This document shows, piece after piece, positions 1,459 through 4,586 of a DNA stretch of 10,429 nucleotides. Under the pieces are notes generated by a model. It saw only the letters and a program-made list of their open reading frames with translations. It had not been told where the DNA came from and searched no databases. Numbering within the stretch: the stretch's first letter is position 1; every line of letters starts with the position of its first letter. The translations under genes were made by a program, and so were the position numbers. The stretch is from Candidatus Auribacterota bacterium. Its GTDB lineage: Bacteria; Auribacterota; JAFGBW01. The stretch spans positions 1-10,429 of the forward strand of contig JAFGBW010000248.1 of the NCBI GenBank assembly GCA_016932965.1. The letters are read 5' to 3'.

Positions 1459-3339
1459 ATGTGCGGAATTGCCGGCATCATCATGGAAAAAGGACTGACA
1501 GCTTCCAGGGAGGCTGTCACAGGCATGACCCGTGCCCTTGTTCATAGGGGGCCTGATGAGGAAGGGTATTTTATTGAAAAAGAAGCGGCTCTGGGTGTCC
1601 GGCGGCTCTCTATCATTGATCTGGTTTCCGGCAGCCAGCCCCAGGCTTCCCATGATGGCCGCTTTCATATTGTCTTTAACGGTGAAATATACAATTACCG
1701 GGAAATCAGAACACAGCTGGCAGAGAATGGCTACTCTTTTCAAACCCATTCTGATACGGAGGTGATCCTGGCTCTCTATCAGATGATGGGGGAGAGAGGT
1801 CTTGATCTTTTGAATGGAATGTTTTGTTTTGCCGTCTGGGATGCCGCGCAGAAAAAATTGTTCCTTGCCAGGGACAGGCTCGGAGTCAAACCCCTTTATT
1901 ATTCGCTATTGAAAGACGGCACTTTTATTTTTGCCTCTGAAATCAAGGCTCTGCTCCGTTACCCTGGATTTTCACCTTCATTGGATCCTAAAGCCATAGA
2001 CACCCTCATGACTTTTGGTTTTCAGCTTTGCCCTGGCACTTTTTTCAAGGAAATTCGTTCTGTTTTACCCGGCCATTTTATATGGGTTACTACAGAGAAA
2101 ATCGAACAAAGGAAATACTGGGACCTGGATTTTCATCAGCCCAAACTCGCGGGATCTTCGGCTGATGTGGCTGAAGAGTTTCACGTGTTGTTAAAACAAT
2201 CCGTAGAACGGAGGCTGGTTTCTGATGTTCCTGTTGCGGCATACTTAAGCGGAGGGATTGATTCTTCGTCCGTGGTCGGGCTATACGCATCCCTGAAAGG
2301 AAAAATCAACACGTTTTCAATCGGATTTACCGAAGAACAATACAATGAATTGACCCATTCACGCCTGGTCTCGGACCGCTTTTCCACCCATCATACGGAA
2401 TTTTTGTGTGCTCCTACTTCTGATGATTTCCATCAATTGATCCTGTCTCTGGAAGAACCTATGGTGACACTCCTTCACCTGCCGTTGTATCTTTTATCCA
2501 GGGAAGTGAGAAAAGCAGGATACAAGGTGGTGCTTTCAGGCGACGGAGCGGATGAATTTTTGGGCGGATACGCTTATTTCGGGCTTTTAAAATTACTGCA
2601 TTTCATCAATCGGTATCCGGATTCTGACTTCAGAAAAAAATTGACCTTGAGATTTAATCCTTCCCTGACCACGGAACAAAGCAGAACGTCGTTTTATGAG
2701 CTGATGATCAATCAATTGAAATCGACTTCCATGATATGCCCGAATGTTCCTTATGGATTTTATGTTTTCCAGAACAAGGAGTCTTTATTTTCCCCCTCAT
2801 TTCATGAGAAGCTTTCCTTTGACAGGGAAGTGGATCTGTTCTTTGATCCGCAGGTTCTTGCCGGATATGAACCCATGGACCAGGCCTTTTACATTGAATC
2901 TAAATTCCGCCTATTAAATCTGACGCTCCCCCTTTCCGATAAAATGAGCATGGCTCATTCGGTTGAAAACCGCTCACCGTTTTTGGACTACACCCTGGCT
3001 GAATTTTGCAGCAGGATTCCATCTTATATGAAAATTTCAGGGCTGAAGGAAAAATTCATCCTGAAAAAGGCCATGAAGAGTTTTTTGCCTCCCTCTATCA
3101 TCGAAAGAAAAAAACAGCCGCTTCTGGCCCCGCCTTCCTGGTTTTTGTCCCTCATCGGAGAAGAATTGGAACATTACCTGAGTGAGGAAACAATCAGTGA
3201 AAAAGGTTATTTCAATCCCTCGTACCTCCGTTTCAGGATTGACCAGTGGAAACAAAATAAAAATGAACATGCTTCCTTCATCCTCATGATCTATTTCATT
3301 CATCTTTGGGATGATCTGTTTTTAAAGGGAAAAAGTTAG
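1459..3339 (+). CDS. asnB: Asparagine synthase (glutamine-hydrolysing), class II amidotransferase
   Basis: Makes asparagine from aspartate, glutamine and ATP in the cytoplasm. The 626-residue length fits the AsnB family. The N-terminal glutaminase (Ntn) domain is intact: Cys2 nucleophile in MCGIAGI, which fixes the start, then HRGPDEEGY (29-37), RRLSIIDL (48-55), FNGEIYNY (73-80) and SDTEVI (98-103). The synthetase domain has the ATP-pyrophosphatase loop SGGIDSS (264-270), VVLSGDGADEFLGGY (357-371) and a late ENRSPFLDY motif, as expected for an active enzyme. No strong Shine-Dalgarno precedes the ATG, although the Cys2 requirement makes this start almost certain. The gene stands alone: divergent from the coiled-coil gene upstream and followed by the structured RNA element. 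Related AsnB-like proteins amidate cell-surface glycans or act in exopolysaccharide clusters. No such genes are adjacent here, so plain asparagine synthesis is the default reading. Confidence 0.93.
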   Translation: MCGIAGIIMEKGLTASREAVTGMTRALVHRGPDEEGYFIEKEAALGVRRLSIIDLVSGSQPQASHDGRFHIVFNGEIYNYREIRTQLAENGYSFQTHSDTEVILALYQMMGERGLDLLNGMFCFAVWDAAQKKLFLARDRLGVKPLYYSLLKDGTFIFASEIKALLRYPGFSPSLDPKAIDTLMTFGFQLCPGTFFKEIRSVLPGHFIWVTTEKIEQRKYWDLDFHQPKLAGSSADVAEEFHVLLKQSVERRLVSDVPVAAYLSGGIDSSSVVGLYASLKGKINTFSIGFTEEQYNELTHSRLVSDRFSTHHTEFLCAPTSDDFHQLILSLEEPMVTLLHLPLYLLSREVRKAGYKVVLSGDGADEFLGGYAYFGLLKLLHFINRYPDSDFRKKLTLRFNPSLTTEQSRTSFYELMINQLKSTSMICPNVPYGFYVFQNKESLFSPSFHEKLSFDREVDLFFDPQVLAGYEPMDQAFYIESKFRLLNLTLPLSDKMSMAHSVENRSPFLDYTLAEFCSRIPSYMKISGLKEKFILKKAMKSFLPPSIIERKKQPLLAPPSWFLSLIGEELEHYLSEETISEKGYFNPSYLRFRIDQWKQNKNEHASFILMIYFIHLWDDLFLKGKS

Positions 3340-3360
3340 ATTCCCGTTTTTCTCAACTTC

Positions 3361-3492
3361 AGGGGGATAAGCAGACGTGAAAATTTTTTTAGGAAGCGTA
3401 GACATGGATGTCGCAGCGCCGTGACCGAAGGGAACCGGTAATGGCAAGGACAGGATGTCCGCAGCAAAAAAGATTTTCATGCCCCCTTTTTT
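3361..3492 (+). ncRNA. Structured RNA element with three GGA-loop hairpins inside a terminator-like closing helix
   Basis: Begins 22 bases after the asnB stop. Outer closure: GGGGG (3362-3366) with CCCCC (3482-3486), followed by six Ts (3487-3492). Next inward, TGAAAATTTTTTT (3378-3390) pairs over 13 positions with 3467-3479, the only imperfection being one G-U. Inside are three hairpins. Hairpin 1 is GACA-TGGA-TGTC (3401-3412). Hairpin 2 runs 3418-3445, a 10-position stem with one mismatch and loop AAGGGAAC. Hairpin 3 is GGACA-GGA-TGTCC (3448-3460), a 5-bp stem with exactly GGA as the loop. Hairpins 1 and 3 are each followed by GCAGC. GGA in an apical loop flanked by ACA and TGT resembles CsrA/RsmA binding sites. 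It could be a small CsrB/RsmZ-like RNA, a 3' UTR terminator of asnB with protein-binding arms, or a dispersed genomic repeat. The helices are seen; the function is inferred. I cannot match it to a named RNA family. Confidence 0.55.
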
Positions 3493-3574
3493 AACCGGAC
3501 AGTAGTGATAATATCATTGAATTAATAAAATAAATACGTAATGTTTAAAACAAACAGGGTCTGAAAATAATCGT

Positions 3575-3591
3575 CAGGGAAATCAGGATGT
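3575..3591 (+). promoter_or_regulatory. Kinase ribosome binding site with two GGA motifs, possible CsrA-type target
   Basis: The Shine-Dalgarno (CAGGGA, 3575-3580) ends 7 bases before the ATG at 3588. A second GGA is formed by the start codon itself in TCAGGATGT (3583-3591). That string matches eight of nine bases of ACAGGATGT in hairpin 3 of the element 130 bases upstream. Paired GGA motifs over a ribosome-binding site are the usual arrangement of CsrA/RsmA-repressed mRNAs; regulation here is inference. The stretch between the element and this site (3493-3574) is A+T-rich, with a TAAAAT -10-like hexamer at 3526-3531 but no good -35. Confidence 0.35.
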
Positions 3592-4586
3592 TGTGGGGTA
3601 TAGGCATAGTCCTTTTCATCGTTTTGGGGGTAATTGGATTTTATTTCCATAAGAAAAGGCCCCCTTCTTCAGGATCGCCGGCCTCTGCCCATAAAGCAGA
3701 TCCTTCAGCTCCGGCATCGGAAAATGCTTCGGTGAGTTTTTCTGCTGACTCTCCTGTCAAGAATCTGCATGACTTGACAAAAAGAATCGCTGAAATATTG
3801 GGAGAAAAATATACCCATTTTTTTCCTTTGGATACCGGCGGAATGGGATTTCTGGTTTCAGCCATGGAGAAGGAGACTAAAAGAAAAGTCGTTATCAAGA
3901 CGATTCTGCCGGACCTCAACCGGGACCAGAGGGCGTTAAAACTCTTTTTCGATGAGTCTTCAGCCATCAATAAAATGAACCATCCCAATATCGTGAAGAT
4001 ATTGGATGTCGGTCAAACCAAGGAATTGTATTATTATATCATGGAATATCTGGAAGGAGAGACCCTTCAGAATAAAATCGACCGTGAGAAAAAAATTTCT
4101 GTTTCAGAAGTGGTTAAAATCGGGACCCAGATAGCACGCGCGTTGCAGCATTGCCATGACAATTATATCGTGCACAGGGACATCAAACCCTCCAATATAT
4201 TTTTATGCGCCAGTGGAACAGCCAAGATCATTGATTTCGGGATCGTGAAAGTCATTAGCGGTGATCCGGCGCTTCTGGCTGGAACAACCAAAATCGGTTC
4301 CCCGGATTTTGCCTCTCCTGAACAGCTCCAGGGTAAAGCCATCTCCGGTAAAAGTGATGTCTATTCCTTGGGAACCTGTCTTTTCTATATGTTGAGCGGA
4401 AGAATGCCGTATAAAGCGTCTGACATGCTGGCTAAACTGCTTGAGAAACCGAAAGATTTGCACGAATTCTGTCCGGATTTGTCCAAAGAACTCGTCTCCA
4501 TCATTCATGGCTCTATTGAGTTGGATCCTGCCCAGCGTATCACGTCCATGGAATTATGGAAACGCTTGAGAAATATTAAAGGGTGA
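3588..4586 (+). CDS. Membrane-anchored Ser/Thr protein kinase (Hanks/PknB type)
   Basis: A 332-residue eukaryotic-like Ser/Thr kinase. Residues 1-20 form a single hydrophobic transmembrane segment followed by positive HKKRP, so the kinase should face the cytoplasm. Residues about 25-58 are a Ser/Pro/Ala-rich linker, and the catalytic domain runs from about 72 to 331. Visible motifs: glycine-rich loop DTGGMG (82-87), ATP-binding Lys104 in VIK, helix-C Glu123, catalytic HRDIKPSN (196-203), DFG (216-218), SPE (243-245, in place of APE) and SDVYSLG (256-262). The catalytic residues are all present. The first loop glycine is replaced by Asp, unlike the usual GxGGMG. The topology is the reverse of PknB: anchor at the N-terminus and no C-terminal extracellular sensor domain. 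The domain is compact and stops soon after the C-lobe. Start supported by the AGGGA ribosome-binding site. Substrates are unknown; no phosphatase or FHA-domain gene is nearby. Confidence 0.9.
   Translation: MLWGIGIVLFIVLGVIGFYFHKKRPPSSGSPASAHKADPSAPASENASVSFSADSPVKNLHDLTKRIAEILGEKYTHFFPLDTGGMGFLVSAMEKETKRKVVIKTILPDLNRDQRALKLFFDESSAINKMNHPNIVKILDVGQTKELYYYIMEYLEGETLQNKIDREKKISVSEVVKIGTQIARALQHCHDNYIVHRDIKPSNIFLCASGTAKIIDFGIVKVISGDPALLAGTTKIGSPDFASPEQLQGKAISGKSDVYSLGTCLFYMLSGRMPYKASDMLAKLLEKPKDLHEFCPDLSKELVSIIHGSIELDPAQRITSMELWKRLRNIKG

Follow-up and report, generated by a model that had tools for sequence, protein, structure and literature searches.

A dispersed hairpin repeat with the core architecture of tRNA-linked repeats lies behind asnB in an Auribacterota genome

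The tRNA-linked repeats (TLRs; Rudd 1999) are known from E. coli. Among the RNAs relevant here, RrB is the rrnB T1-T2 spacer RNA, and this spacer is widely used in plasmids. TLRs were first noted in E. coli in 1978, and no function has gained acceptance since; they include RtT and the E. coli RrA, RrB and RrF, number 22 in K-12 and end in 18-19 bp of the upstream gene (PMC8144298). E. coli RrB binds CsrA in vitro at ~100 nM in a GGA-motif-dependent manner, and most E. coli TLRs are predicted to be CsrA non-binders (PMC8144298). Expression of RtT RNAs extends to further gammaproteobacteria (PMC4986893, PMC8092127), and in enterics, RtT-like sequences have been treated as equivalent to BIMEs (PMC2965389).

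Here we describe a related element from a Candidatus Auribacterota bacterium. The window, i.e. the whole analysed stretch of 10,429 nucleotides, is contig 34 of a MAG of 3.14 Mb in 300 contigs that is 92.6% complete. The element starts 22 nt past the stop codon of asnB, and a Ser/Thr kinase gene follows on the same strand ~95 nt beyond it (Table 1). A sequence-only reading had described a nested G5/C5 closure, a 13-position helix with one G-U pair, three hairpins and a T6 run, and a base-by-base check agreed with this layout. The 5' strand of the outer helix P0 reads TGAAAATTTTTTT, the single G-T pair among its 13 positions is 3385/3472, and the T6 run occupies 3487-3492. The claimed excess of pairing was borne out as well: RNAfold of 3355-3495 gave -49.2 kcal/mol (z -4.54), with 0 of 200 shuffles equally low, and independent shuffles yielded z-scores of -4.82 for 3361-3492 and -5.2 for 3375-3482 (0/500 equally low). 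The antisense strand of 3355-3495 is less exceptional than the sense strand (z -2.74), and the inner core by itself is weaker (z -2.62). The predicted minimum (-48.7) is a rod in which the first hairpin arm pairs with the last arm; the three-hairpin form, at -46.0, lies 2.7 kcal/mol above it, and the family alignment supports this form over the rod as the predicted fold.

Table 1. Coordinates of the element and its flanking genes in the window
Feature	Position	Strand	Evidence
asnB-type asparagine synthase	1459..3339	+	PF00733 E=6e-78, PF13537
Whole element: outer helix, TLR-type core, T-run	3361..3492	+	z -4.8
G5, pairing partner C5 3482-3486	3362..3366	+	direct reading; pair probability 0.96
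Outer helix P0, 5' strand; partner 3467-3479	3378..3390	+	direct reading; pair probability 0.90-1.0
Conserved core (TLR/RtT-type module)	3390..3469	+	covariance models R1, R2, R3
Hairpin P1, GACA-UGGA-UGUC, loop GGA 3406-3408	3401..3412	+	family fold, covarying
Central arm (P2/P3 region); P3 = 3435-3437 with 3442-3444, GUAA loop	3418..3445	+	
Hairpin P4, GGACA-GGA-UGUCC, loop GGA 3453-3455	3448..3460	+	family fold
Outer helix P0, 3' strand	3467..3479	+	partner 3378-3390
C5 then T6, terminator-like end	3482..3492	+	direct reading
Ser/Thr protein kinase gene, downstream	3588..4586	+	PF00069 E=3e-53

Blastn against the source genome revealed six copies with 79-86% identity. A covariance model built from these six copies only, window included (R1), detected ~37 copies at E<0.02 and scored the window copy, a member of its training set, at 92.4 bits. 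A second model (R2), derived from 20 class II copies with the window absent from training, found 52 loci at E<1e-3 and recovered the window copy independently (E=6e-8), and a family-wide model (R3), trained without any E. coli sequence, gave it 54.1 bits with the window in training. The possibility of a dispersed repeat family, raised by the sequence-only reading, was thereby confirmed by the covariance-model search of the source genome, which returned many related copies with compensatory changes; we put the copy number at ~50, in at least four subfamilies. Subfamily (class) I, to which the window copy belongs, comprises eight intact copies and one interrupted copy; the core lies in a long A/T and G/C palindrome or next to it. 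Subfamily II, the largest, carries the core GACTCGAAGCC...GCAGTCCAAT between tandem 7-mers in random orientation; subfamily III has GAA loops, and subfamily IV consists of L017, L022 and L027. We do not claim a sense-only placement behind genes: the upstream gene is on the same strand in 7/7 class I cases, but the tandem sense versus antisense comparison gave 4 versus 0 (p=0.125), and the class II copies are placed at random.

The surroundings of several copies have features of their own. At L019 (1553-1830), a class I copy is split after CCCGTAAG by an insert of ~265-285 bp. This insert is edged by GTAAG on either side, includes 7-mer arrays in inverted orientation as well as a long palindrome (ATTGAGACATGTTTATTTGC...), and looks like a second small mobile element. 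Another dispersed palindrome that lacks the core (TGCGCGGAGAGCTTTTTCAGGGAAAAATCTCTCCGCGCA) lies downstream of the core at L009 and L013, adjoining class I copies. A further palindrome, the one that the core splits at L009, L010 and L012, sits intact directly 3' of the core at L011, L014 and L016 (TGCGGGAAGACCTTTTTTATAAAAAAAGGTCTTCCCGCA), as if the core had moved into or out of the palindrome loop. In the class II flanks at L018, L024, L026, L035 and L036, inverted tandem 7-mers (CACCACGGAGGACACGGAG ... CTCCGTGTCCTCCGTGGTG) delimit composite elements, inside which the core is surrounded by further 7-mer arrays (gagaatt / tgagtta). The location of class II copies in 7-mer arrays suggests a preference for such sites or co-amplification with them.

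A nucleotide search of 58 relatives found copies in the source genome alone, and phage and plasmid records gave no match. In covariance-model searches of relatives, R1, R2 and R3 found zero copies in the two same-order genomes, and weak class-III-like copies were present in one member of the phylum (G030).

Within the source genome, one copy (L017) lies 34 nt behind tRNA-Ser(GCT), with the core where the T-loop would be. Its frame is GGGTTCG[core]AATCCCTCTTTCTCCG (also given as GGGTTCG[core]AATCCC), 16 nt are identical to the upstream tRNA 3' end, and R1, which was not trained on L017, matches it at E=2e-11. L027 retains T-arm and acceptor remnants, with no tRNA found in its 2.2-kb locus, and L022 and the rest retain none, so that the copies can be arranged as an escape series from L017 through L027 to the tRNA-less majority. 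A scan of GTDB contigs with an exact pattern from the 3' part of the family pointed to Mariprofundus and further zetaproteobacteria, where R2 E-values go down to 2e-15. There the core sits inside the T-loop (GGGTTCGA[core]GTCAATCCC...), and the 3' part repeats the 3' end of the upstream tRNA-Ser or tmRNA. R2 gave E-values of 1e-11 to 1e-14 on copies in such T-arm duplicates behind tRNA-Ser and tmRNA, and the stretch shared with the upstream gene is 19 nt at L105, 39 nt at L103 (tRNA-Ser) and 18 nt at L115 (tmRNA). R2 matched at E<1e-4 in 22 of the 78 zetaproteobacterial genomes, a figure somewhat raised by the five that were chosen for carrying the module; one genome (G109) has 44 dispersed copies.

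The sequence-only reading had matched the layout to no named family. For the core this proved incorrect, as it has the architecture of the tRNA-linked repeats and RtT. With R3, RrB of E. coli scored 17.4 bits (E=2e-5) and the best unrelated match 10.1 bits; E. coli RttR scored 11.1 bits, not above the ~10-bit noise. The Rfam RtT model (RF00391), which gives 137 bits for E. coli rttR, scored two zetaproteobacterial tmRNA-linked copies at 41.6 bits (E=4.5e-5) and 36.2 bits and L017 at 28.0 bits, all below the gathering score of 45 bits and with the T-arm/acceptor flanks supplying part of the scores. For the window, the Rfam search returned nothing relevant at gathering or permissive thresholds. 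BLAST of a tmRNA-linked copy against E. coli gave no match.

Like the TLRs, including RrA, RrB and RrF, the family has the core order P1-P2-P3-P4 with GGA-containing loops on P1 and P4, and the linked copies here and in the zetaproteobacteria end in the 3' end of the upstream tRNA or tmRNA; L017 and several zetaproteobacterial copies also lie directly downstream of a tRNA. Unlike the TLRs, the window copy and ~50 others are not beside tRNA or rRNA genes and have no duplicated 3' end; in subfamily I a long palindrome takes its place. The host is not a proteobacterium, and its phylum group differs from that of the zetaproteobacterial genomes. The window copy follows asnB, with no tRNA in the window and no duplicated tRNA 3' end. 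Compared to RtT (E. coli rttR, tyrT operon), the frame GGAUGAGAACC ... GGUUCGA [core] AAUCC is shared by L017 and the tmRNA-linked copies, whereas the window copy has no match and the loops are GAA in RtT and GGA/CGA here. As the window copy has the P1-P2-P3-P4 core and lacks both positional features of TLRs (location downstream of tRNA or rRNA; 18-19 bp of shared 3' end), we file it as TLR-like rather than as a TLR.

Alignment of 70 copies from the source genome and the zetaproteobacteria revealed that 92.5% of cells pair, compared to 33-50% when slid, and that both sides have changed in 200 cells versus 62 +/- 7.5 when shuffled, with compensated pairs in 6/6 helices. Since this alignment was fitted to the structure, the slid controls outweigh the shuffles. 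Class II alone has nine both-sides-changed pairs versus 3.5 in shuffles. The structure is real at the family level, and the ~75-nt core (P1-P4, with NGA/GGA loops on P1 and P4) is one homologous covarying family that includes the T-arm-linked copies and the ~50 tRNA-less copies here. G-U and A-C mismatches are equal over all 70 copies (35 versus 33); the T-arm-linked copies have 4 G-U versus 1 A-C, which are small numbers, and the remaining copies, class I counted, have 31 versus 32. Given this split, the structure was kept in the source copies, and the dispersed ones appear either to be decaying without RNA-strand preference or to be constrained as DNA.

Membership of the window copy in this family is supported by its independent recovery by R2 (E=6e-8), the match of R1 to L017, the match of R3 to RrB and the covariation over 70 copies. 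We consider it reasonably probable that the element is a dispersed, non-autonomous TLR/RtT/RrB-type module in the 3'-end palindrome of asnB and a probable mRNA 3' end; against this stands that the window copy has neither the defining TLR feature nor a Rfam match. We propose that the module arose beside tRNA genes and left them by some DNA-mobility or recombination route, and that the window copy would now occupy the loop of the long palindrome behind asnB. Upon transcription of asnB, the outer helix and T6 would probably end the transcript, and the folded core might cap and protect the mRNA 3' end, resisting 3' exonucleases. By inspection, a long and branched stem ends in C5 and then T6; a simple terminator scan reports none because the loop exceeds the size that its rule allows. 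The element would form the 3' structure of the asnB mRNA and is probably its terminator. Of the options named earlier, a terminator that ends the asnB transcript and carries arms for protein binding is plausible for this copy, as T6 follows the closing helix and two GGA loops fit the CsrA-type motif. For a small regulatory RNA with its own terminator no support was found: no promoter-like site was found within 3300-3543, the sole one in the scanned stretch lying downstream at 3544-3571, and T-runs are absent after the outer helix in most copies of the family.

A wider generalization, tentative and one that we do not favour at present, would see here a bacterial counterpart of tRNA-derived SINEs, in which a T-loop-born module repeatedly left tRNA/tmRNA 3' duplicates and multiplied, to ~50 copies in the source genome and to 44 in a zetaproteobacterial one. 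In this way it would have supplied mRNAs with preformed 3' ends, some of them bearing CsrA sites.

Two loop GGAs are present in the three-hairpin fold of the window copy, and the loops ACAUGGAUGU and ACAGGAUGU match the CsrA consensus, with AUGGAU and AGGAU fitting the CsrA motif. GGA occupies the P1 and P4 loops in 25/39 and 20/39 own copies and in 22/31 and 23/31 zetaproteobacterial copies, respectively, and is nearly absent from the P2 and P3 loops. Its enrichment in exactly P1 and P4 in both lineages suggests past or present CsrA binding by the source copies. The genome encodes one CsrA, which has arginines at the positions expected for RNA contact. These points, along with the GGA-dependent binding of CsrA at ~100 nM by RrB, which has the same architecture (PMC8144298), favour a CsrA-binding 3'-UTR or sRNA sponge, whose P1 and P4 loops would hold a CsrA dimer and whose many copies would together titrate CsrA. 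We regard this explanation as unlikely. Both GGAs are kept in only 13 of the 39 own copies, with CGA, TGA or U-rich loops elsewhere; csrA adjoins a FliW-like gene (L007:1429-2121; FliW-like by sequence recognition), i.e. a protein antagonist system; the dispersed copies have no excess of G-U over A-C; and, as noted above, prediction speaks against CsrA binding by most E. coli TLRs (PMC8144298). Hairpin-loop GGA with ACANGGAUGU-like flanks is shared with the CsrB/CsrC/RsmZ sponges, whereas the element has only two GGAs in loops where the sponges have many, matches nothing in Rfam, and does not conserve GGA across its copies. The sponge as the family's reason to exist is set back by the loop variation and the G-U/A-C test, and a family-wide RNA function stays hypothetical, as GGA is found in only about half to two thirds of own copies and the dispersed copies show no G-U excess. 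On the best reading, CsrA binding is not what keeps the family; by analogy with E. coli RrB, the two GGA-loop hairpins of the window copy could accommodate a CsrA dimer, and such binding may be a side activity of this copy.

An ordinary REP/BIME-like palindromic repeat, in which the hairpins would matter as DNA for a single-strand transposase and any RNA 3'-end effects would be incidental, is improbable in our view. It would account for the high copy number, the random orientation of class II within tandem 7-mers and the equal G-U and A-C mismatches, and the term BIME has been applied to rtT-like sequences of enterics (PMC2965389). REP, BIME and REPIN are likewise dispersed intergenic hairpin repeats, some with terminator potential. 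Unlike these, the family has a longer multi-hairpin core with T-arm relatives rather than a single REP hairpin, and its T-arm-linked copies lean to G-U (4 versus 1 A-C, small numbers). A search for the Y1 transposase (PF01797), positive in 5 of 14 known control genomes, found none in the source genome, and a REP/RAYT origin via this enzyme was rejected as no such gene was found in this MAG of ~93% completeness. A stand-alone intrinsic terminator of asnB without family kinship would fit the long helix followed by T6 22 nt past the stop codon, but it leaves the ~50 homologous cores and the tRNA-linked relatives unexplained and is very improbable; the existence of many copies of a covarying core refutes it as a full account.

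With the window copy read as a dispersed TLR-like module, a puzzle element of E. coli is seen to recur at high copy number in an uncultured bacterium unrelated to it. Since one and the same module follows tRNA and tmRNA genes in Zetaproteobacteria and is dispersed here, the origin, mobility and role of TLRs become testable by comparative genomics, and the family-wide structure, in which two fixed arms carry GGA loops, provides a yardstick for the proposed CsrA function.

Further arrangements of the module were observed in other genomes. One zetaproteobacterial contig (G059 contig 11, 4411-4704; L118/L128/L130) carries a tandem array of near-identical 72-82-bp units. At three other zetaproteobacterial loci (L121, L148 and L149), R2 matches lie among ATGGA/ATGAA(C/G) repeats that resemble Met-rich coding sequence (GGCATGGATATG...), and the module may there lie within a protein gene or at its end. 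Outside the phylum, at L179 of genome G238, two RtT-like units whose loops read AUGGAU stand in tandem (GCCATGGATGGCGTAGGTGATCGCCGCAGGCGCCCCGCAGGGCGGGGCGCCTGGATGGCGCC).
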